The position numbers and the translations under genes are program-made. From positions 1 through 64,000 of the forward strand of contig NZ_JABWGQ010000035.1 of NCBI RefSeq assembly GCF_014595975.1: a stretch of 64,000 nucleotides of DNA, given 5' to 3'. The DNA is from Sphingopyxis sp. LK2115. Its GTDB lineage: Bacteria; Pseudomonadota; Alphaproteobacteria; Sphingomonadales; Sphingomonadaceae. The notes beneath the pieces were generated by a model. That model made no database searches and was not told where the DNA came from. It was given only the letters and a program-made list of their open reading frames with translations. Position 1 is the first letter of the stretch. Each line of letters opens with the position of its first letter. Shown here piece after piece: positions 4,052 through 15,594 of the stretch.

Positions 4052-5347
4052 ATGCCTGAGTCGGATCGCCGACCGGCGCGCAACCTGCCGCCGCTGTCGC
4101 TTCACATCCCCGAACCGCGCTATCGTCCCGGTGACACGCCGGATTTTGGCGACATCGAGATCCCCGCGGTTGAGGCGACCCCGCGCCCCGGCGAAGCGAC
4201 CAGGCCCGATGCGATGCGTGAGCTTTGCTATGGCCTTGTCCGCGTCCTCGATTTCGATGGACAGGCAAAGGGGCCGTGGGATCCGAAACTGCCCGCCGAC
4301 CGGTTGCGCACGATGCTGCGTTACATGATGCTGACGCGGGCGTTCGACGACCGCATGTTCCGCGCGCAGCGGCAGGGCAAGACCAGTTTTTACATGAAAT
4401 GCACGGGCGAGGAGGCAACCTCGATCGCCTCGACGATGGCGATCGACCGCGCCGACATGTGTTTCCCCAGCTATCGCCAGCAGGGCATTTTGATCGCGCG
4501 CGAATATCCGCTGATCCAGATGATGAACCAGATTTATTCGAACCGCGGCGATCATCTGCTGGGGCGGCAGTTGCCGATCATGTATTCGGCGCCCGAGCAT
4601 GGATTCTTCAGCGTGTCGGGCAATCTTGCCACGCAATATCCGCAGGCGGTGGGCTGGGCGATGGCGTCGGCGTCAAAGGGCGACAGCCGCATCGCGACCG
4701 TGTGGTGCGGCGAAGGTTCGTCGGCCGAGGGCGACTTCCACTCGGCGCTGACCTTTGCCACGGTCTACAACGCGCCCGTGATTTTCAATGTCGTGAACAA
4801 CCAGTGGGCGATTTCGAGCTTTTCGGGCTTTGCCGGGGGCGAGCGCACGACCTTTGCGGCGCGCGCCGTGGGCTATGGCATCGCGGGGTTGCGCGTTGAC
4901 GGCAACGACGCGCTGGCGGTCTATGCAGCGACGCAGTGGGCGGCCGACCGCGCGCGGACGAACAACGGCCCGACGCTGATCGAACATTTCACCTATCGCG
5001 CCGAAGGCCACAGCACGTCGGACGATCCCAGTGCCTATCGCGCCGCACAGGAAGCGAGCGCCTGGCCCTTCGGCGATCCGATCGTGCGGCTCAAACAGCA
5101 TCTGATCGCACTCGGCGAATGGGATGAGGCGCGTCACGACGCGCTGACCAGAGAACTCGACGAACTGGTCAAGACGACACAGAAGCAGTCCGAAAAGCTG
5201 GGCATTCTCGGTCACGGGATGCACCAGCCGTTCGAAACGATGTTCGAGGATGTGTTCGAGGAGATGCCCTGGCATCTCAAGGAACAATGTGCGCAGATGC
5301 TCGCCGAGCAAGAGGCCAAGTTCGGCCCCGACTGGAAGCCCGAATGA
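4052..5347 (+). CDS. bkdA1: Branched-chain 2-oxoacid dehydrogenase E1 alpha
   Basis: This is the thiamine-diphosphate-dependent alpha subunit of the complex that oxidatively decarboxylates the 2-oxoacids of valine, leucine and isoleucine. At 431 residues it has the branched-chain E1 alpha length. Visible signatures are 'FYMKCTGEEATSIASTMAID', 'CFPSYRQQGILIAR', 'QYPQAVGWAMA' and the TPP motif 'GEGSSAEGDFHSALTFATVY...NNQWAIS'. 'EHFTYRAEGHSTSDDPSAYR' is the phosphorylation-loop region typical of E1 alpha. The start ATG follows AAGGGAAGAAG. The stop overlaps the E1 beta start region, so the genes are coupled in one operon with E2. Confidence 0.95.
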   Translation: MPESDRRPARNLPPLSLHIPEPRYRPGDTPDFGDIEIPAVEATPRPGEATRPDAMRELCYGLVRVLDFDGQAKGPWDPKLPADRLRTMLRYMMLTRAFDDRMFRAQRQGKTSFYMKCTGEEATSIASTMAIDRADMCFPSYRQQGILIAREYPLIQMMNQIYSNRGDHLLGRQLPIMYSAPEHGFFSVSGNLATQYPQAVGWAMASASKGDSRIATVWCGEGSSAEGDFHSALTFATVYNAPVIFNVVNNQWAISSFSGFAGGERTTFAARAVGYGIAGLRVDGNDALAVYAATQWAADRARTNNGPTLIEHFTYRAEGHSTSDDPSAYRAAQEASAWPFGDPIVRLKQHLIALGEWDEARHDALTRELDELVKTTQKQSEKLGILGHGMHQPFETMFEDVFEEMPWHLKEQCAQMLAEQEAKFGPDWKPE

Positions 5348-6378
5348 TGAGCGCCGATACCCAAACCAGGACCATGAACATGATCGAGGCGATCAACAGC
5401 GCCATGGACGTCATGCTCGAACGCGATCCGGCGACCGTCGTGATGGGCGAGGATGTCGGTTATTTCGGCGGTGTGTTCCGCGCCACCGCGGGCCTGCAGA
5501 AAAAGCATGGCAAGACGCGCGTGTTCGACACGCCGATCAACGAATGCGGCATCATCGGCGTTGCGGTCGGCATGGGCGCTTATGGCCTGCGCCCCGTCCC
5601 CGAAATCCAGTTCGCGGACTATATCTATCCGGGGCTCGACCAGCTCGTCAGCGAAGCGGCGCGACTGCGTTACCGTTCGGCGAATGATTTTATCTGCCCG
5701 ATGACGGTGCGCACGCCGTTCGGCGGCGGCATTTTCGGCGGCCAGACGCACAGTCAGTCGCCCGAAAGCATCATGACCCACATCTGCGGCGTCAAGACGG
5801 TGATCCCGTCGAATCCCTATGATGCCAAGGGCCTGCTGATCGCGGCGATCGAGGATAATGACCCCGTCGTCTTCCTTGAACCCAAGCGCATCTATAACGG
5901 TCCGTTCAGCGGCTATTACGACCGCCCCGTCGAACCCTGGTCGAAACATGATGCGAGCGCGGTGCCCGAAGGCTATTACCGCATCGACCTGGGCAAGGCC
6001 GCGACGGTCCGCGCGGGCGAGGCGTTGACGATTCTCGCCTATGGCACAATGGTCCATGTCACCAGGACGATCGTCGAGGAAATGGGCATCGACGCCGAAA
6101 TCATCGACCTGCGCACGCTTTTGCCGCTCGACATCGAAGCGATCGAGGCGTCGGTGAACAAGACCGGCCGTTGTATGATCGTCCACGAAGCGACGCGCAC
6201 CTCGGGCTTTGGCGCCGAACTCGCCGCGCTGGTGCAGGAGCGTTGCTTCTATCACCTCGAAGCGCCGGTCGAGCGCGTCACCGGCTTCGACACGCCCTAT
6301 CCGCACAGCCTCGAATGGGCCTATTTCCCCGGCCCGGTGCGCATCGCGACCGCGCTCACCAAAATCCTGAAGGACTGA
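5347..6378 (+). CDS. bkdA2: Branched-chain 2-oxoacid dehydrogenase E1 beta
   Basis: E1 beta forms the active heterotetramer with the preceding alpha subunit and supplies part of the TPP pocket. The 343-residue protein shows 'MGEDVGYFGGVFRATAGL', 'DTPINECGIIGVAVGMGAYG', 'PVPEIQFADYIYPGLDQL' and the C-terminal transketolase-type end 'EWAYFPGPVRIATALTKIL', all standard for BkdA2. Two adjacent ATGs (5344 and 5347) overlap the E1 alpha stop. The second is preferred because GGAAG lies 8 bases before it. A third ATG at 5374 is also possible. Translation is coupled to E1 alpha. Confidence 0.94.
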   Translation: MSADTQTRTMNMIEAINSAMDVMLERDPATVVMGEDVGYFGGVFRATAGLQKKHGKTRVFDTPINECGIIGVAVGMGAYGLRPVPEIQFADYIYPGLDQLVSEAARLRYRSANDFICPMTVRTPFGGGIFGGQTHSQSPESIMTHICGVKTVIPSNPYDAKGLLIAAIEDNDPVVFLEPKRIYNGPFSGYYDRPVEPWSKHDASAVPEGYYRIDLGKAATVRAGEALTILAYGTMVHVTRTIVEEMGIDAEIIDLRTLLPLDIEAIEASVNKTGRCMIVHEATRTSGFGAELAALVQERCFYHLEAPVERVTGFDTPYPHSLEWAYFPGPVRIATALTKILKD

Positions 6379-6382
6379 CGCC

Positions 6383-7687
6383 ATGGCCCGCTATTCATTC
6401 CGTCTGCCCGACATTGGCGAAGGCATCGCCGAGGCCGAGATCGTCGCCTGGCACGTCAAGGTGGGCGAGCGCGTCGAGGAAGATGCGCAGCTTGCCGACA
6501 TGATGACGGACAAGGCGACCGTCGAAATGGAATCGCCGGTTTCGGGCGTGGTCGTCGAACTGGCGGGCGAGGTCGGCGACCTGATTCCGATCGGATCGAC
6601 GCTGGCGGTGATCGAGACCGATGACGAGACGCTGGAAGCGCCCGCGAAGGAAGCCGCAGAGGACGCGATCGTGGCGGAAACGCCGGGGGCGGAGCAAACA
6701 CCGATGGCTGAAACGGTGGCGCCCTCTCAATCCGTGGACCCTGAGCCTGTCAAAAAGCCGTCCTTGCCGTCGACCGCCGAACGGGAAACCGGCCTATCAA
6801 CAGGTTCAGGCCAGAAGGGGAAGGAAAAGCCGGTGCTGGCCTCGCCCGCCGTTCGCGCGCGTGCAAAGGATCTGGGCATCGACCTGTCGCAGGTGCAGTC
6901 CGACGGCGATCGCATCCGTCACGCCGACCTCGACGCCTTCCTCCGCTATAGCGCGGGGCAGGGCTATCGCGCGCCGGGCGCGAGCCGCGCGCGCGCCGAC
7001 GAGCCGGTCAAGGTCATCGGGATGCGCCGCAAGATTGCGGAAAATATGGCGGCGGCGAAGCGCGCGATTCCGCATTTCACCTATGTCGAGGAAATGGATG
7101 TCACCGCGCTTGAAGCGATGCGCGCGGATTTGAACGCCAATCGCGGCGATCGCCCCAAGCTGACGATGCTGCCCTTCCTGATCGTCGCAATCTGCCGCAC
7201 GATCCCCGATTTTCCGATGATCAACGCCCGTTATGACGATGAAGCAGGCGTGGTGACGCGCCACGGCGCGGTGCATCTGGGCATGGCGACACAGACCGAC
7301 GCGGGGCTGATGGTGCCGGTGATCCGCGATGCGCAGGACAAGAATGTCTGGCAGCTGGCGAGCGAGATCGCGCGCCTCGCCGAAGCCGCGCGCAGCGGCA
7401 AGGCGAAAGTCGAGGAATTGACCGGCGGCACGCTCACCATCACGTCGCTCGGCCCGCTTGGCGGCATCGCGACGACGCCGGTGATCAACCGGCCAGAGGT
7501 CGCGATCATCGGGCCGAACAAGATCGTCGAACGTCCGGTGTTCGATGGCGACGACATTCGGCGGGCCAAGCTGATGAACCTGTCGATCAGTTGCGATCAC
7601 AGGGTGGTCGATGGCTGGGATGCGGCCAGCTATGTTCAGGCGCTGAAGAAGCTGATCGAAACGCCGGTGTTGCTGTTTGCAGATTGA
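6383..7687 (+). CDS. bkdB: Branched-chain 2-oxoacid dehydrogenase E2 (dihydrolipoyl acyltransferase)
   Basis: E2 forms the complex core and transfers the branched acyl group from lipoyl-lysine to CoA. In the 434-residue protein, residues ~1-77 are one lipoyl domain with the lipoylated lysine in 'MMTDKATVEMESPVSG'. A linker spans ~78-150. A peripheral subunit-binding domain lies at ~152-188 ('ASPAVRARAKDLGIDLSQV'). The acyltransferase domain follows and ends with the catalytic 'SISCDHRVVDGWDAASY'. The linker includes an imperfect palindromic repeat (6740-6810) translated in frame. No E3 gene follows, so the dehydrogenase component must be encoded elsewhere. LipA, needed for lipoylation, is at 60106. 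Confidence 0.95.
   Translation: MARYSFRLPDIGEGIAEAEIVAWHVKVGERVEEDAQLADMMTDKATVEMESPVSGVVVELAGEVGDLIPIGSTLAVIETDDETLEAPAKEAAEDAIVAETPGAEQTPMAETVAPSQSVDPEPVKKPSLPSTAERETGLSTGSGQKGKEKPVLASPAVRARAKDLGIDLSQVQSDGDRIRHADLDAFLRYSAGQGYRAPGASRARADEPVKVIGMRRKIAENMAAAKRAIPHFTYVEEMDVTALEAMRADLNANRGDRPKLTMLPFLIVAICRTIPDFPMINARYDDEAGVVTRHGAVHLGMATQTDAGLMVPVIRDAQDKNVWQLASEIARLAEAARSGKAKVEELTGGTLTITSLGPLGGIATTPVINRPEVAIIGPNKIVERPVFDGDDIRRAKLMNLSISCDHRVVDGWDAASYVQALKKLIETPVLLFAD
6740..6810. repeat. Palindromic repeat inside the E2 coding sequence
   Basis: Arms at 6740-6759 (CCTGAGCCTGTCAAAAAGCC) and 6791-6810 are complementary at 15 of 20 positions. The arm sequence resembles the 'CCTGAGCNTGTC' palindromes widely dispersed in sphingomonad genomes. 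It lies within the flexible linker between the lipoyl and subunit-binding domains and keeps the frame. Confidence 0.55.
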
Positions 7688-7793: not shown

Positions 7794-10700
7794 TTAAAGC
7801 CCTAATCCCGCAAAGCTCGTCTGGTCGAACTTCAGCTTGAAAGTCACATAGGCGCCCGATCGGGAGAATCGCGCATCCTCGAAATCGCGGTCGTGGAAGC
7901 CCGCGAAATTGTAACCGAAGGTGATGTTGGCGTTCGTCATCGGCGCCAGCGTCACCGTTGGCCCCCCGGCCCAGCTGACGGTATCGGCATCGGTGCCCAC
8001 GCGCACGGTGCCCGATGCCCCGACATCGACATGCTCGCCAAGGTTGAAACGAAAGTCGGCGCCGATCAGGTTCGACCAGCCCTTGACGTCATCCGCGCCG
8101 AAGCGGTCGAAATTATAGCGTGTGCCCCAGAAAAGTCCGACCTCGGCGCGCTCATGCCACCTGCCGCCTTCGCCGCGCACACCGAGCGGGGTCCAGTTGA
8201 TCGACAGACTGCCCAGCAGGCGGCGGCTCGTCGCGTCGCCGTCGATCGTCAGCGCGGCGCCGCCAATCGGTCCGGCCTGCCCCGCAACAGCATCGCGCAC
8301 CTTGTCAGAGCGGAACTCGCCCTTGCCCAGCCACGAAACCTGTGAGTTGGCCGGGCGGTGCGCCCAGCTCATCTCGAACTGGATCACCTCGGTCGTCGGC
8401 GTCGTGCCGTTGCCGCTGGCCTTGGCATAGGTGAACAGCGCGCCCAGGGCACGGCCTTCGCCCAGTTGGCGCAGACCGCCGAGCGTCAGGCCATAGCGGT
8501 TGGCAAGTTCACCATCGCGATATTCGGCACGGCCGGTGAGTGTCCAGCGGTCGGCGCGCCAGGTCGCGCCGGTGCTGATCGCCAGGAAATCCTCGGTCAG
8601 CACAGTGTTGCCGCCCAGAAAGCCGCCCGATGCGACCGGCTGCTGCGCGTTCAGCACGTCGCCCGCGCGAATCCCGCCGATCGTGCGATTGCCGTCGACC
8701 GAGACATCGACCGACAGATGGTTACCGAGCTTCAGCGACTGCGACAGCCCATAGGCAGCGAAGCTGCGCGGGCCATATTCGCCGATGTCCTGCCGGTTCG
8801 CGGTGGCGAGCAGGCGTGCGCCGGACCAGGGGGTGAGGTCGAAACCGAGCCGCGCGGTGCGCGCGCGGACCGTATCGCCGTCGGCGATTTCATAACTGCC
8901 GACGAGGTTGACGTCGCGGCTGATGCCGAAGCGTGCGCCCAGCCGGTGCCGTGTCGGGAAGTCGATGCTCGCATCCCTGCCGCCCAGAGCAAATTCGGTC
9001 TGCGCATCGAGTTCGAGGCGCTTATCGAACAGGCGCTGCGTCGCGCCGACCTGAACGATGGTCGAGCGGTTGCGCGCGGCGTCGGACAGGCGATCGTCGG
9101 CGTGCGTCAGCCCGGCGCGCGCGATGCTGCTGCCATTGTCATATTCGACCAGCGCGCGCGCGGCGCGGCGCCGCGCGCCGGTATCCAGATAGTCTTCCTG
9201 CCAGGCGCTGCCCGTCAGCGACAGCGTGCGCGTCGCGCGAAGGCGGGCATCAACGCCCAGCTTGCGCGTGCCGTCCTCTCCGCGATTGAGTTGACCCGCG
9301 CCGAAACCGGCCTCGCGCTCGCGGATATAGGCCAGGAAATCGGCGGCGCTGCCATGATGTTCGGCCTCGATCAGCCATGCTTTCGCGGTTCCTGCGGCGG
9401 CGCTGCCGCCGTGCAGCGCTTTCGCATTGCTCACCGCCAGTTCGGCGCGGACTTCGGTGTCGATATTCGGGCGATAGCGCACGTCGATGCCGCCAATGTC
9501 GGTCTGGGTGTTGCCGTCCTCGTCGTGGATGAAGGTCGCGCCGATACGCAACTTTTCATCGTCCGACCGATAGCTGACGCGACCGCCGGCGTTGAGCACG
9601 CGCTGGCCGACACCATCGACTTCATATTCGGCGACGATGAACTGCGGGTCGAGGTTCGACGACCGACTGAGCACTGGTGCGCGAAAACGGATCGTGCCCG
9701 ACAGATAGTCGATGTCGTAATCGACGTGGCGGGTCAGGGCGACGCTGTCGACGATGCGTTCGCTGTGCAGCCGGTCGCGCGTCTCGATGACGACCCGCTC
9801 GCTGTTCGGCACAATATCCTTTGCGCCGAGCTGGTACGGTCCCGTCAGGCCATTGCCCTGGATCTCGTCACGGCGGAACCGATAGGGGGTGTCGGCGACG
9901 AAGGCGGTCGCGGCAAGATTGCGGCCGCGATACTCTGCCTTGCCGCCGTTGAGTGCGCGCTGGTAGCGGGCAAGCTCAGGTTCCGAAATGCCCGTCTCGA
10001 TATCGCCGAACATCGCGTAAAATTGCGGGCGTTCGAGCCGCAGATAGAGCTTGCGAACCGATGCGGCATCATGGCGTGTCTCGTTGCGGTCGGCATAGAT
10101 GGTATAATAGGCGCGCGGATCGATCACGCCGCCGAAGCGCGCATCGTCCGCCTTCTTGTCGCTGTCATAGGCGAGCGTCATCAGCCATTTTCCGCGCACG
10201 CGTCCCTTGGCATAGAGCGCAAGGCGCCCGTCGGCATTGAGGTCGTCCAGCGTCTCGGCGACCGGCTCCATCCGGTCATCGAGCGTGTTGTATCCGAGCG
10301 TCCCCGCAGCAAAGCCGACGACGGTCCACGCACGATCGCCGGGGTCGAGCCAGGTTTCGATCACCTGCTTGCGCGTCACCCGATCGTCGCGGAACAGAAA
10401 GTCGATCGACAGCGTGCCCGAGGCGGTCGTCGGTTCAAGCTCGATATAGGCGATGCCGTCGTCGCCATCGACCTTCCAGACCGGTTGCGCGCGTTCGAGG
10501 CCCGACAGCTGGCGTGCCTGCTGCGCATCGGCCTCGATCGCCGGATAATAGGGTGCAGGGACGCTGAAATCGCCGGTCAGCCCGGCGCGGATCGGCTTGC
10601 CGTCGCGGTCGGTCAGGCGAACGGCGATCACCGGGCGCGTCACGCCATCGGCGACGAGCACCGATTTTTCGCGGATCAGCGCCGCGCGCATCGGGGTGAT

Positions 10701-12905
10701 CGAATAATGGACGCTGCGCTCGATCGTTTCGACCGTCGCGCCGTTCGCATCCTTTATTTCGGCCACCAGCCGGTTTTCGCCCTCGCGGATTTCGAGCCCG
10801 CGCCACAGGCTGACCGCGACGCGGCCGTCGGCCGATTTGCTGACGCCTTCAAAGGTCAGCGGATCGGCGGGCTGGCCGTTGACGCGCAGCGCGACGATCT
10901 GTCCCGGCGTGTGTTTGATCGCGGCGCGGATGGCCTTGGCGCGTGGATTATGGTCGGCGGCGGGGAAAAGCCAGCCGATGCCGGGTTCTTGCCCGGCCAG
11001 CCAGTCGCGATGGGCGCCGGCCGCTTCGGGATCGGAAAGGGGCGTCGCCACCGGGCGCGCGGAGGGGGCCGACGCAGCGCGCGGGGTGCTGGCGGCGGCG
11101 CGGAAGTCGGCGCGTTTCAGCGCGCCGCCGCGACCTTCGACAAAGCGCGAGATGGCGCTGCCCGCGCTTTGTGCGCTCCGCGCGCAATCGACGGCGGCGC
11201 GGTCAAGCGGCAGCGTCGAAGGATCGATCTGCACGACGTGCAGGCCGGGGCGCACCCCTGCGAAATGATAGCGGCCATCTTCGTCGGTGACGGTATAGCT
11301 GCCGTCCTGCAGCATCACGCGCACGCCCATGATGCCGTCGGCCTTGGCGGGATCGACCGCGCAGCCGCCGTCCGTGATACGGCCGATAATCGTCATGCGA
11401 TCGCCGAGCTGGTCGCGTTTGATCGCGATCGTCGCTTCGGCGATGTTGCTGGTCGTCCCGCGATTGTCGGTCGCGCTGGCGCGGTTCAGCGCGCTGCCCG
11501 GCTGCGCCGAGACGGCGACTTCGGCCAGATAGGTGAGCAGCACCGACCGCGCGGCCGCGATGCCGGGCAGGGTGACGGTGAAGGCGCGGCCGTTCGACTC
11601 TATCGCGGCGTCGACGCGCGCGCCATCGACGCGCACCGTGTCGGCACGCAGCCGCATCCCGGCCGGCAGGACGTCGCGCACCGTCACCGCGCCGGTGGTG
11701 CGCCGCGCGTCGCGATTGGCGACCTCGATCCGATATTGCACGACATCGCCCGGCACCGCGACCTGTGTGGAAGTCGTCTTGCGCAGGACCAGTGGCAGGC
11801 CGGGCTGGTCGACGGGAATGTCGACGCGCACCGGGGCGGGACTGTTCAGGGTAAAGGCACGGCCATAGCTGGCGTCGACGATGGTAAACGGCTGGCCGTC
11901 GTCGGGACGGCGAAATGCGGCCAGATCGGCCGGGCTGGCGGCCGACGGCGCGGTGAAGGGCGCGGGGGGGGCGACGATCAGCCGGTAGCTGCCCGGCGCG
12001 ACGAAGGGAAAGCGATAGTCGCCCGCCGGGAAGTCATAGACCGTCCCGCCCGAATCGGTGACGCGCTGTCCGGTGATAACGCTGGAAGGATAGGCCGAAA
12101 CGCCGTCGTCGCCGAACACGGCGGCGGGCTGGCCGGTGGCGGCATCGACGATCGTGACACGGCTGCCCGCCACGGGCGCGCCGTCGCCGCTGTCGAACAC
12201 GATGCCAAAGGGGTCGACAAGGAAGTCGATCGTCGCGAGCGCAACCAGACTGGCGCTCGCCCGATCGGACACGCGCAGTGTCAGCGGCGCGCCGGGGTTG
12301 ACCGACAGGCGACAGTCGCCCTGCACCACGGCGGGCGGCACGCCGATCGTGTTGATGAAACCGACGAACTCGCCGCTGTTTGCGGCGGTTTCGGTGAGGG
12401 TGATCGATTCGCGGTCGCCATTTTCGAGATCGAGAAGGACGGGCAAGGTGTCGCGCGCCTGCGGGTCGCGATTCGCCGATACGAGCGTCACGCCCACGAC
12501 GAGCATTTCGCCGGCGCGAAAGCGGTCGCTGCTCTGAAGCGATGCCGGGGCGGTCGACATCCCTTGATAAACGCCGGCGAGCGGGATTGCGGCCGTTGCG
12601 GTCGCGCTGAGCGCCCCGACGCCGCCCGTTCGCGCGCGGACGCATTGTGTCGGCGCGAGCGGTACCGAGCGGTCGCCGCCGCCGGTCGTCAGGCGATAGG
12701 TTGCCATGCGCGGCGGATCGGACGGGCGCGGGACGACGGCCACGTCGACGCGGTTCGACAGCGTCGCACCGCGATGGCCGTGATGCGTCCATTCGGCCGA
12801 CGCGGTGTTCGTGATCACCTGCGCGCGCGCCGCCGGAGCCGCAGGCAGCAGCGCTGCCGCAACCAGTGCAGTCAGAAGGCCAAGGGATGTGTCGCGGATA
12901 GCCAT
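7794..12905 (-). CDS. Large DUF11-domain outer-membrane barrel protein (1703 aa)
   Basis: Residues 1-28 are a signal peptide ending PAARA. The mature N-terminus 'VITNTASAEW' repeats a motif seen at the start of two smaller proteins upstream. About 370-495 is a DUF11-type Ig-like domain ('AVPGDVVQYRIEVANRDA', 'VTVRDVLPAGMRL'). About 505-560 is an SdrD-B/carboxypeptidase-regulatory-like beta fold ('VTDEDGRYHFAGVRPGLHVV'). About 660-850 are further beta domains. From ~860 to the end, alternating short strands with many aromatic and charged residues ('DYDIDYLSGTIRFRAP' and similar) suggest a large outer-membrane beta barrel. It is the last gene of a four-gene minus-strand cluster. The probable role is an anchor or export pore for the cluster's secreted DUF11 proteins; this is inference. 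ATG at 12905 begins a clear signal peptide. Confidence 0.8.
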   Translation of the reverse strand: MAIRDTSLGLLTALVAAALLPAAPAARAQVITNTASAEWTHHGHRGATLSNRVDVAVVPRPSDPPRMATYRLTTGGGDRSVPLAPTQCVRARTGGVGALSATATAAIPLAGVYQGMSTAPASLQSSDRFRAGEMLVVGVTLVSANRDPQARDTLPVLLDLENGDRESITLTETAANSGEFVGFINTIGVPPAVVQGDCRLSVNPGAPLTLRVSDRASASLVALATIDFLVDPFGIVFDSGDGAPVAGSRVTIVDAATGQPAAVFGDDGVSAYPSSVITGQRVTDSGGTVYDFPAGDYRFPFVAPGSYRLIVAPPAPFTAPSAASPADLAAFRRPDDGQPFTIVDASYGRAFTLNSPAPVRVDIPVDQPGLPLVLRKTTSTQVAVPGDVVQYRIEVANRDARRTTGAVTVRDVLPAGMRLRADTVRVDGARVDAAIESNGRAFTVTLPGIAAARSVLLTYLAEVAVSAQPGSALNRASATDNRGTTSNIAEATIAIKRDQLGDRMTIIGRITDGGCAVDPAKADGIMGVRVMLQDGSYTVTDEDGRYHFAGVRPGLHVVQIDPSTLPLDRAAVDCARSAQSAGSAISRFVEGRGGALKRADFRAAASTPRAASAPSARPVATPLSDPEAAGAHRDWLAGQEPGIGWLFPAADHNPRAKAIRAAIKHTPGQIVALRVNGQPADPLTFEGVSKSADGRVAVSLWRGLEIREGENRLVAEIKDANGATVETIERSVHYSITPMRAALIREKSVLVADGVTRPVIAVRLTDRDGKPIRAGLTGDFSVPAPYYPAIEADAQQARQLSGLERAQPVWKVDGDDGIAYIELEPTTASGTLSIDFLFRDDRVTRKQVIETWLDPGDRAWTVVGFAAGTLGYNTLDDRMEPVAETLDDLNADGRLALYAKGRVRGKWLMTLAYDSDKKADDARFGGVIDPRAYYTIYADRNETRHDAASVRKLYLRLERPQFYAMFGDIETGISEPELARYQRALNGGKAEYRGRNLAATAFVADTPYRFRRDEIQGNGLTGPYQLGAKDIVPNSERVVIETRDRLHSERIVDSVALTRHVDYDIDYLSGTIRFRAPVLSRSSNLDPQFIVAEYEVDGVGQRVLNAGGRVSYRSDDEKLRIGATFIHDEDGNTQTDIGGIDVRYRPNIDTEVRAELAVSNAKALHGGSAAAGTAKAWLIEAEHHGSAADFLAYIREREAGFGAGQLNRGEDGTRKLGVDARLRATRTLSLTGSAWQEDYLDTGARRRAARALVEYDNGSSIARAGLTHADDRLSDAARNRSTIVQVGATQRLFDKRLELDAQTEFALGGRDASIDFPTRHRLGARFGISRDVNLVGSYEIADGDTVRARTARLGFDLTPWSGARLLATANRQDIGEYGPRSFAAYGLSQSLKLGNHLSVDVSVDGNRTIGGIRAGDVLNAQQPVASGGFLGGNTVLTEDFLAISTGATWRADRWTLTGRAEYRDGELANRYGLTLGGLRQLGEGRALGALFTYAKASGNGTTPTTEVIQFEMSWAHRPANSQVSWLGKGEFRSDKVRDAVAGQAGPIGGAALTIDGDATSRRLLGSLSINWTPLGVRGEGGRWHERAEVGLFWGTRYNFDRFGADDVKGWSNLIGADFRFNLGEHVDVGASGTVRVGTDADTVSWAGGPTVTLAPMTNANITFGYNFAGFHDRDFEDARFSRSGAYVTFKLKFDQTSFAGLGL

Positions 12906-12973
12906 GCCAGCCCCGAAGGGAGCAGCGGCGGCCGGTGCCCCCGGCGCGCGCGCTGTTCCCGCCCGTTACCTGG

Positions 12974-14038
12974 TCAGTTGACCGTGGCGCGGAAAACGAG
13001 GGTGCGCGTCGCGCCCGCGGCGATCGTTGCGATCGTCCCCGACACGTTGGGCGCCGAATAGCTGCCGCCTGCCGTGCCGTCGGCGTTGCACGTTCCTGCG
13101 GTGACCGTGCCGTTCAGCAGGATCGTGCCCGCGTTGAAGGTCAGCTGGCCGGGCACGGGGTCGTTGATCACGACCGACGTGGCGTCAGCGCTGCCCGAAT
13201 TGGCGACGGCGATGCAATATTCGACGACCGCGCCCGGAATCAGTTTCGGGTTGGTCGTGTTGTTGAACGGGTCGGAGATGACGCGACTGGTCTTGGTGAC
13301 GGTGAGCGTCGCCGTCTGGACCGTATAATCGTCATCGTCGCTGTGCGACCCGTCGCGCGCGGCATCGCCGGTCACGCCAGCGACGTCGGCAAAGACGGTG
13401 TCCTTGCCCGCGGTGTTTGCGCCGGTCGTTTCGGTGATCGCCGCGCCCTGACTGCCCGACGTGCCGCCTTCGCGCGCCGTCGCGCGAAGGGTCACCCCGG
13501 CGACGGCGTTGTTGGCGAGCCCGGCCGGAATGTCGGCAACGACGAACAGGCGGATCGCCGTATCGACGACAAGCTCGTCAATATAGCCAGAAACCAGCGT
13601 GTCACCGGCATCCCAACTGCCGATCGAACCCGACGATGTGTTGTCGCGGTAAATGCGCACGTTGGTCGCGTTGAAGCTGTCGGTGCCGCCATGCGCGGCG
13701 GTGCCGCCGACGATCTGCGAGGCGACGAGCGCGAAATCGAGCACTTCGTTCGAGCTGTTGGTCAGCTGAAAGGTCGTCACGGCGTTGGTTTGCCCCGGAA
13801 CGACATTGGTTGTGACGGTGCCGACTTCCTCGACAAGCAGGTTGATCTTGCGATCGACGGTAAAATTGTTCGACGCCGATTGCTGGCCCTGCGCGACGCC
13901 ACCGACCTGATAGTCGACGGTAGCGGTATTGGTGATTGTGGTTCCCGCGGTCGTGCCGGCAGCAAGTGCCGGCGTGGCGGCGAGACTTGAAATCGCCGCC
14001 AGACCGATGAAGCCCACGTTGTTCAGCTTGCTGGTCAT
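12974..14038 (-). CDS. Secreted DUF11-type protein (354 aa)
   Basis: A signal peptide is followed by the mature start 'AGTTAGTTITNTATVDY', then a strand-rich protein low in cysteine and rich in Thr, Asn, Ala, Gly and Asp. 'INLLVEEVGTVTTNVVPGQTN' precedes a first Ig-like region. The last ~110 residues ('VTKTSRVISDPFNN', 'IPGAVVEYCIAVANSGSADA', 'VVINDPVPGQLTFNAGTILL') form a DUF11 domain of the TIGR01451 type. The ATG at 14038 is preceded by AAGGAG at 8 bases. It resembles the 334-residue protein at 14590-15594 in layout and probably belongs to the same surface structure. The function is unknown; a structural surface protein is the likeliest reading. Confidence 0.75.
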   Translation of the reverse strand: MTSKLNNVGFIGLAAISSLAATPALAAGTTAGTTITNTATVDYQVGGVAQGQQSASNNFTVDRKINLLVEEVGTVTTNVVPGQTNAVTTFQLTNSSNEVLDFALVASQIVGGTAAHGGTDSFNATNVRIYRDNTSSGSIGSWDAGDTLVSGYIDELVVDTAIRLFVVADIPAGLANNAVAGVTLRATAREGGTSGSQGAAITETTGANTAGKDTVFADVAGVTGDAARDGSHSDDDDYTVQTATLTVTKTSRVISDPFNNTTNPKLIPGAVVEYCIAVANSGSADATSVVINDPVPGQLTFNAGTILLNGTVTAGTCNADGTAGGSYSAPNVSGTIATIAAGATRTLVFRATVN

Positions 14039-14062
14039 AGCTGAAGCTCCTTGGCTTGGATC

Positions 14063-14090
14063 GATTGCCTATTCCCCACCGCTGGCAATC
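14063..14090. repeat. Hairpin in the gap before the 354-aa DUF11 gene
   Basis: GATTGCC (14063-14069) and GGCAATC (14084-14090) form a 7-bp stem with a 14-nt loop in the short AT-rich gap between two cluster genes. It could shape the mRNA between them. No T-run is present, so termination is doubtful. Confidence 0.35.
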
Positions 14091-14113
14091 ATTAAGCGGT
14101 TATTTTCAGGTAA

Positions 14114-14590
14114 CTATTTGACAATTCCCCGAAACATGAGCTTGCCCGTGGCCCCCGCCGGAATCGGCTTTTGAAAGGCCCAGCGGATATGCGTGACATC
14201 GGCGGGCTGCGCGGCACGGTGTGCGCCGTCGGCCGTCGCTATCGAAAGCTCGTCAAGCCGCCCCCACTGCTTGCCCCCGTCGACCGACACCAGCGGCTCT
14301 GTGTCACCGGCACCGGCGAAACGGACCGCGGCGGGCAGCGGATTGGTGACCACGAACTTGTCGGCGGCCTGTGCGCCGACGTTGCGATAATTCAGGACGA
14401 AGACGAGCCGGTCGCCGGGGACGACGAGCTTCGGTTCTTCGAGCAGGATGCGCTGCTTGCCATCGGCGTCGGTCGAAACCCGCTCGACAAAAACCTTGTT
14501 GTCGAGCGCAACCTGGTTGGCAGCGAAGGCCGGGCCGGGAAGCGCGGCGGCGAGCATAAGCAAAAGGGCAGGGCGCATGGGCATCTCCAT
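14114..14590 (-). CDS. Small secreted DUF11-like single-domain protein (158 aa)
   Basis: A signal peptide (MRPALLLMLAAALPGPAFAA) is followed by a single beta domain. 'LVVPGDRLVFVLNYRNVGAQ' and 'FVVTNPLPAAVRFAG' match the DUF11 pattern in which a 'pGd.v.Y.i...N.g' strand is followed by 'v.d.lP'. It lacks the 'ITNTA' N-terminal motif of its neighbours. Its start ATG overlaps the stop of the 334-residue gene (ATGA), so the two are translated together. The mature protein is about 135 residues, about the size of one Ig-like module. It could cap or link the larger subunits; this is conjecture. Confidence 0.7.
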   Translation of the reverse strand: MEMPMRPALLLMLAAALPGPAFAANQVALDNKVFVERVSTDADGKQRILLEEPKLVVPGDRLVFVLNYRNVGAQAADKFVVTNPLPAAVRFAGAGDTEPLVSVDGGKQWGRLDELSIATADGAHRAAQPADVTHIRWAFQKPIPAGATGKLMFRGIVK

Positions 14591-15594
14591 CAGTGGATCA
14601 TGGTCTGGAAGCTAATGGTGCGGCTCTGACCACCGGCGACGGTGCCGAGCGCGACATTGATCCGCGCGCCGTTGTAATCGCCCGCGTCGGCATCGGCCGC
14701 GTCGGTAAGGGGGCTGCCGCCGAGCGTGATCGAGCCGGGGACATAGCTGGTGTCGGCAGGGATATTGTCGGTGACAGCCAGGCCGCTCACCGAACCGCTG
14801 CCCGTCACCGTCGCGACGATCGTATAGGTGATCGTCGCGCCGGGGATCGGATCGGCGGTGCCGAGCGGGTTGGTGATGCTCGCCGATTTGACGAGCGCGA
14901 CCGTCGCGGCCGACACGACGAACGCCCCGGCATCTTCGCCATCGGCGCCGGTCGCGCCGACGACGGCGTCGCCACCGCCTTCGCCCTGACCGGCAAAGCT
15001 GGTGCCGGGGGTGCCGGTTCCGGTCCTGGCCGCGGCAACCAGGCTGACGATGCCGCGATTGCCGTCGACGACCGTTCCGGGCGTCGTCGTCACGACGAAC
15101 ACGGCGATGCTTTCGTCGGGATCGAGCGTCGGATCGTTCGCCCCCGCAGTGTAAAGCGTGTCGGTGCCCGCGTCGAACAGGCCGTCACCATTGTCGAGAT
15201 AAATCTGTGTGACGGCAGGATCATAATCGTCGCCGCCCGCATTCGCGACCGTGCTCAGCGCGAAAGCCTCGACGCCATTGCCATTGTTGGTGACCGAGAA
15301 GGTCAGAACCTGTCCGGTCGCGCCCGGTGTGGTCGGCACGTCGGCGGGATTGCTCGAATCGACCGTGACGTCGAGCAGTTCGTCGACGAGCAGATCGACG
15401 CGGTTGGAGTCGATCGTCGTTGGCCCGCCGCCGGAATCGAAGCTGGCGGTTGCGGTATTGCTGATCGTTGAACCGGCGCGCGTGCCGGCAGCGGTCGCCT
15501 GCACCGGCAACGCAAGCGCGGCGAGCAGCGCGATGAGTGAACAAGAGGGAAGAAGCCGATGCTTCGCGCCCCCCACAGGCGCTATCATCATCAA
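14590..15594 (-). CDS. Secreted DUF11-type protein (334 aa)
   Basis: This is the first gene of the minus-strand DUF11 cluster. After a signal region ending near 'PVQATAAG' the mature protein begins 'TRAGSTISNTATASFDSGG', matching the N-termini of the 354-residue and 1703-residue proteins. Two beta modules follow: one with 'QVLTFSVTNNGNGVEAFALS' and acidic stretches ('LDNGDGLFDAGTDTLY') that could bind calcium, and a C-terminal DUF11 module ('PIPGATITYTIVATVTGSGS', 'LAVTDNIPADTSYVPGSITL'). The start lies at consecutive ATGs with GGAG upstream. The AT-rich 190-bp gap to the divergent permease gene probably holds the cluster promoter, but no confident -35/-10 pair was picked. Confidence 0.75.
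   Translation of the reverse strand: MMMIAPVGGAKHRLLPSCSLIALLAALALPVQATAAGTRAGSTISNTATASFDSGGGPTTIDSNRVDLLVDELLDVTVDSSNPADVPTTPGATGQVLTFSVTNNGNGVEAFALSTVANAGGDDYDPAVTQIYLDNGDGLFDAGTDTLYTAGANDPTLDPDESIAVFVVTTTPGTVVDGNRGIVSLVAAARTGTGTPGTSFAGQGEGGGDAVVGATGADGEDAGAFVVSAATVALVKSASITNPLGTADPIPGATITYTIVATVTGSGSVSGLAVTDNIPADTSYVPGSITLGGSPLTDAADADAGDYNGARINVALGTVAGGQSRTISFQTMIH

Follow-up and report, generated by a model that had tools for sequence, protein, structure and literature searches.

A conserved four-gene cluster of Sphingopyxis is predicted to encode a DUF11 donor-hairpin surface fibre

On the minus strand of the window, i.e., the whole stretch of 64,000 nucleotides analyzed here, four open reading frames follow each other in the order A, T, B and OMP (Table 1), with an overlap of 1 base between the genes of A and T. 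The host genome comprises 3.2 Mb, is 99.99% complete, and has Sphingopyxis as its nearest relatives. Each of the four proteins has a signal-peptide-like start, the start codon of gene A being TTG or one of the ATGs just downstream, and a Pfam profile search found DUF11 in all of them, over the Pfam cut-off of 24.6 bits in B (35.8) and OMP (38.1) and under it in A (22.8) and T (17.5). These results, with the sub-threshold scores of A and T in mind, agree with an earlier note on this DNA, which had described three small exported DUF11-type proteins encoded before a protein of 1703 aa. No promoter or terminator signal stood out at the cluster. On the plus strand of the window (4052-7687), three genes convergent with the cluster resemble by sequence a branched-chain 2-oxoacid dehydrogenase complex (two E1 subunits and E2).

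Table 1. Genes and features of the DUF11 cluster, with their positions in the window.
Feature	Position	Strand	Description
Gene A, 334 aa	14590..15594	-	Shaft subunit candidate: donor hairpin, middle domain and truncated DUF11 acceptor
Donor hairpin of A, residues 37-72	15379..15486	-	GTRAGSTISNTATASF...SNRVDLLV; predicted isopeptide Asn46
Acceptor DUF11 of A, residues 230-334	14593..14907	-	Ends at Pfam position 82 of 114; Lys236, Asp276
Gene T, 158 aa	14114..14590	-	Acceptor-only DUF11 domain; triad Lys and Asp missing
Gene B, 354 aa	12974..14038	-	Shaft subunit candidate: donor hairpin, middle domain and truncated DUF11 acceptor
Donor hairpin of B, residues 27-66	13841..13960	-	AGTTAGTTITNTATVDY...SNNFTVDRKI; invariant Asn37
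Acceptor DUF11 of B, residues 241-354	12977..13318	-	Ends at Pfam position 84-85 of 114; invariant Lys249, Asp293
Gene OMP, 1703 aa	7794..12905	-	Donor-only anchor, putative assembly barrel
Donor hairpin of OMP, residues 29-60	12726..12821	-	QVITNTASAEW...SNRVDVAVV; predicted isopeptide Asn33
Complete DUF11 inside OMP, residues 372-495	11421..11792	-	Whole triad Lys376, Asp411, Asn474
SdrD-B-like (CnaB-fold) domain of OMP, residues 505-606	11088..11393	-	Pfam 26.1 bits, sub-threshold; model
Predicted outer-membrane beta-barrel, OMP residues ~1087-1703	7797..9647	-	~32 long strands; earlier strands uncertain

The C-terminal DUF11 domains of A, T and B are one beta-hairpin short, and in A and B the protein ends where the Pfam match ends. 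The missing hairpin, of the form xITNTAxx..SNxxxV, is found instead where the mature chains of A, B and OMP begin, so that A and B each carry a donor and an acceptor, OMP a donor only, and T an acceptor only. A single regular expression recovered the hairpin motif at the mature start of 76/82 relatives of A, 86/87 of B and 81/92 of OMP; among the misses are copies that are cut, frame-disrupted or non-orthologous. Placing the real hairpin behind the acceptor gave higher Pfam scores than any of six shuffled hairpins, both for A (DUF11 32.1 against at most 29.3; DUF7507 29.5 against at most 25.1) and for B (DUF11 45.1 against at most 43.8; DUF7507 27.7 against at most 17.8); six shuffles were used because a single one per protein was too weak for the DUF11 score of B. 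Profile comparisons were also made with the complete DUF11 domain inside OMP, the hairpin of which has diverged. In profile-profile comparison with this domain, acceptor plus hairpin showed no gain over the acceptor alone or over shuffled hairpins, a profile of its tail told N-termini and shuffles apart mainly in A, to some extent in OMP and not in B, and the hairpin profile was weakly drawn to that tail (9/27). Based on sequence and models, we predict that the cluster has the defining property of a donor-strand fibre, i.e., an incomplete subunit domain with a matching donor on another subunit.

The distribution of the isopeptide residues follows the same division. A crystal structure (9IFR) is available for a DUF11 domain with a Lys-Asp-Asn isopeptide (PMC12617251), and alignment of the DUF11 domain inside OMP to 9IFR places its three triad residues at the equivalent sites; this domain serves as an internal control for the unsplit state. 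In the split domains the triad is divided, with Lys and Asp in the acceptors and Asn in the donor hairpins of A, B and OMP (Table 1). Asp is kept in 80/80 A and 84/84 B sequences, and Lys in all 74 B sequences covered and in 78/80 A sequences, both exceptions being truncated or off-frame; in a set of 18 diverse B sequences, N11, K223 and D267 are invariant. In T, the Asp site is occupied by Asn in 79/83 sequences and the Lys is absent throughout, with Glu36 and Asn83 in the aligned region of the protein studied here. From these residue patterns, we infer that intermolecular bonds may form at the split triads.

One related locus (L030) has T, B and OMP in one frame, with two stops read through as Ser, and a single-chain AlphaFold model of T-B-OMP-N was built in cis with 55 rows. 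Matches of complete pilin isopeptide domains (BcpA, SpaD and RrgB) to this model span residues ~3 to 596-599, with an rmsd of 2.3-2.8 Å over 115-127 residues; BcpA 268-410 matched with Z 11.5 and an rmsd of 2.6 Å over 124. As T reaches to about position 135 of the model and the OMP hairpin occupies 568-599 (pLDDT 80-86), the hairpin fills T's open domain. Judged by these match ranges, the OMP hairpin is predicted to complete the domain, i.e., hairpin and open domain fit. The hairpin paired with T was that of OMP and not that of B, which was modelled with little confidence (pLDDT 56-65). For this reason, and since every acceptor may accommodate every donor, the model informs about fit and not about the identity of the partner.

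OMP also carries carboxypeptidase-regulatory-like modules, as well as the SdrD-B-like module reported in the earlier note, which is sub-threshold in Pfam, while its predicted fold matches solved SdrD B domains (Z 11.7, rmsd 2.5 Å over 96 residues). An AlphaFold2 model of OMP residues 505-1703, built with 41 sequences (mean pLDDT 70.7, pTM 0.54), contains, besides the SdrD-B fold and Ig-like parts, a large barrel of ~32 long antiparallel strands from ~1087 to the C-terminus. The C-terminal part of OMP is thus predicted by the model to be a very large antiparallel outer-membrane barrel. A barrel of ~840 residues beginning at ~860 had been proposed in the earlier note, with its absence from a structure prediction named as a ground for refutation; residues 857-989 were modelled at pLDDT <50, so the barrel itself is retained and its start at ~860 is tentative. 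Foldseek matches of the barrel were mostly outer-membrane barrels, with TM-scores of about 0.3 or less among the matches listed, and no barrel family was assigned because these scores are too low. In VIA, FimD was the top row (Z 14.3, rmsd 6.5 Å, 313 residues), tied with VDAC, TOM40 and porins, which leaves membership of the ushers unsupported, as is membership of the SprA family (TIGR04189, 15.7 bits against a cut-off of 200). A family of shorter proteins (about 1,150-1,500 aa; G380:C1:2350498-2351601, L119 = G268:C25 and other Alphaproteobacteria) matches only ~345-770 of the OMP model, and apparently represents a related barrel lacking the DUF11 part.

Conservation of the four genes together, which the earlier note had set as a check, extends from related to distant genomes. 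The order A-T-B-OMP is held in 66/68 evaluable relatives, ranging from Sphingopyxis to Gallionella and Desulfuromonadales (a hand count that leaves out five loci with a cut contig); the exceptions are L070, without a detectable A, and L073, which is rearranged. Sixteen of twenty further regions (L100-L114, L118) have the same order, two (L115, L117) are without a labelled B, and two (L116, L119) have only distant barrel matches. Relatives of OMP were confirmed by tblastn in Sphingopyxis, Sphingorhabdus, Parasphingopyxis, Allosphingosinicella and Novosphingobium, and also in Methylotenera, Gallionella, Sulfuriferula, Burkholderiales, Zetaproteobacteria, Lysobacteraceae, other Gammaproteobacteria and Desulfuromonadales. 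Among 150 Sphingomonadaceae genomes, B and full-length OMP occur in the identical 48 (Fisher P about 2e-40, a guide only, as the genomes share ancestry), while T is present in 48/48 OMP-positive and 26/102 OMP-negative genomes. Considering the conserved order and co-occurrence, we conclude that the cluster is a conserved system and not a product of chance.

Copies of A or OMP are frame-disrupted at four loci (L035, L044, L026 and L056), through either assembly errors or decay, which suggests that the system can be lost. The system is apparently expanded in the rearranged cluster of Desulfuromonas (L073), where there are two T-like genes along with several acceptor-type proteins of great length (960 and 1367 aa).

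The whole-genome inventory of DUF11 comprises five proteins. Four are the products of the cluster, and the fifth, encoded on a different contig, has 660 aa and combines a P-domain and a complete DUF11 with a truncated DUF11 at its end. DUF11 proteins of similar size (~660 aa) are present in 26/30 genomes of the genus. In Methylotenera, Zetaproteobacteria, Burkholderiales and others, acceptor-only proteins adjoin the cluster, and their N-terminal parts include an ice-binding-like domain, a weak nidogen-like match and others. Read from match ranges, long acceptor-only proteins occur in 40/48 OMP-positive Sphingomonadaceae genomes and in 0/102 of the others, and in 22 sphingomonad genomes such a gene lies within 2.2 kb of OMP. 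T-like proteins with a truncated DUF11 occur as orphans (L120-L129) in 26/102 sphingomonad genomes without B or OMP. Eight of these genomes were searched and no clear further DUF11 protein was found in them; a DUF11 ending there can therefore exist without a visible partner. The orphan proteins argue for some independent role of T.

Based on these results, we propose that the cluster probably encodes an adhesive DUF11 donor-hairpin surface fibre, which would probably be locked covalently and held by a barrel other than an usher. Each subunit would use its N-terminal hairpin to fill the open C-terminal DUF11 domain of the subunit ahead, with A and B as shaft subunits, each able to give and to receive. 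OMP would form the base, since it can give a hairpin but has no open domain to receive one: its hairpin would close the last subunit, and its barrel would anchor the fibre and possibly export it. The suggestion in the earlier note that the barrel anchors the small proteins is hereby turned into a concrete, still hypothetical mechanism, in which the barrel protein supplies, at its N-terminus, the kind of final DUF11 hairpin that is missing from the small proteins. The split of the domain, the division of the triad and the acceptor-only adhesin-like protein from elsewhere in the genome go beyond that note. The acceptor-only proteins with P-domain, ice-binding-like or nidogen-like N-termini would be tip adhesins, comparable to FimH, the acceptor-only tip adhesin of type 1 pili. 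From the inventory of donors and acceptors, the chain would read tip-(A,B)n-OMP, a polarity that would equal that of chaperone-usher pili. As the triad is divided between acceptor and donor, each joint would probably weld covalently when Lys and Asp of the acceptor meet Asn of the donor.

The role of T is the least certain step. We first took T for the plain tip of a fibre, but gave this reading less weight because the triad is missing from T, orphan T-like proteins exist, and dedicated candidates for acceptor-only adhesins were found. T may instead act as a reversible holder of donor hairpins before assembly, above all that of OMP, an assignment to which we give a nearly even chance, whereas a minimal tip or cap appears rather unlikely. 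The scheme in its full form, i.e., a new class of Gram-negative pilus made of self-welding split-isopeptide DUF11 subunits that are exported and anchored by a giant barrel with the last donor, with T as reversible cap and without usher, PapD chaperone or sortase, is a possibility that we place somewhat below even.

The same split-domain evidence would also suit a non-polymeric adhesin complex, in which the barrel displays a single stalk of fixed length (tip, A and B) through its N-terminal hairpin. A and B are single genes, and a fixed order OMP-B-A-tip would need one copy of each; A and B nevertheless each have a matching donor and acceptor with no obvious bar to self-addition, and we regard such a stalk as unlikely. 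A hairpin could in principle also close its own subunit, and A and B would then be circularly permuted, closed monomers whose hairpins fold into their own C-terminal domains, acting as separate, non-polymerising proteins of the surface or periplasm. Both halves are indeed held in one chain in A and in B, and the entry of the OMP hairpin, and not that of B, into T in the in-cis model is compatible with self-closure of B. Closed monomers, however, do not explain why OMP has a hairpin without an open domain, nor why long acceptor-only proteins are found in 40/48 genomes and only alongside OMP and B, and we consider them about as unlikely as the stalk. It is very improbable that the barrel serves as an unrelated transporter or porin, with ordinary stalk or S-layer proteins as its small neighbours in the operon: its best structural matches do include numerous unrelated porins and receptors at similar Z, and DUF11 is frequent in surface proteins (PMC12617251), but OMP and B share one and the same set of 48/150 genomes, the gene order is held over great distance, and the donor hairpin of OMP resembles those of A and B.

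If the fibre reading is true, it would add a route to covalently locked surface fibres in Gram-negative bacteria, one that employs DUF11, a domain long listed as of unknown function. It also makes a sharp prediction, i.e., that defined Lys and Asn residues, each from a different gene product, are joined beside a defined Asp. The system is common, as it is present in about a third of the sampled Sphingomonadaceae (48/150) and in Methylotenera, Gallionella, Zetaproteobacteria and Desulfuromonadales, and may therefore account for how many environmental bacteria adhere. Isopeptide domains that are split by nature would also be useful as protein-linking tools.

Searches of the whole genome at E<=0.01 gave no match to the usher (PF00577), the PapD-type chaperone (PF00345) or the sortase (PF04203), while the controls (E. 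coli for the usher, Gram-positive controls for the sortase) were found. The absence of export and sortase genes claimed before thus holds genome-wide for the three families that this check covered. No description of split DUF11 fibres or of DUF11 donor exchange was found in the open-licence PubMed Central literature searched, and this is consistent with the view of an undescribed envelope system.

Among the known systems, chaperone-usher pili (type 1 and archaic; PMC9452303, PMC12122975) share with the cluster an N-terminal donor combined with an incomplete C-terminal Ig-like domain, modular tip adhesins that are acceptor only, and an outer-membrane barrel encoded in the operon. Unlike in those pili, neither usher nor PapD was found here, the donor is a hairpin completing DUF11, the barrel protein itself carries a donor, and a covalent lock is predicted. 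The archaeal thread of Sulfolobus (Saci_0406; PMC9715654) is alike in its head-to-tail donor-strand complementation, its proposed covalent bonds between subunits and a terminal protein without one half. It differs in being archaeal, in its subunit and in having no outer-membrane barrel, and in the bond proposed for it an Asn of subunit n is the partner of the N-terminal amine of subunit n+2, in contrast to a Lys-Asp-Asn triad inside the joint.

The DUF11/CLIPPER domain with its intramolecular isopeptide bond (9IFR; PMC12617251) belongs to the same domain family and has the same Lys-Asp-Asn triad by alignment, which is found in the acceptor-donor pairs of A and B and not in T; there, domain and triad lie in one chain, whereas here they are apparently split between gene products. 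Gram-positive sortase pili (BcpA, SpaD and RrgB) have complete pilin domains that are among the best matches of T with the OMP hairpin, and a covalent shaft, which here is predicted; unlike in these pili, no sortase was found, and joining would proceed by split domains and not by transpeptidation. The SprA/Sov translocon of type 9 secretion resembles OMP in its very large barrel, with a weak profile match (15.7 bits) and a Foldseek match to 8gl8, but OMP lies far under the family cut-off (TIGR04189, 200 bits). Overall, the cluster would work like other donor-strand fibres, and, with neither the usher and PapD genes of chaperone-usher pili nor the sortase gene of sortase pili detected, there is a fair chance that it represents a class of its own.
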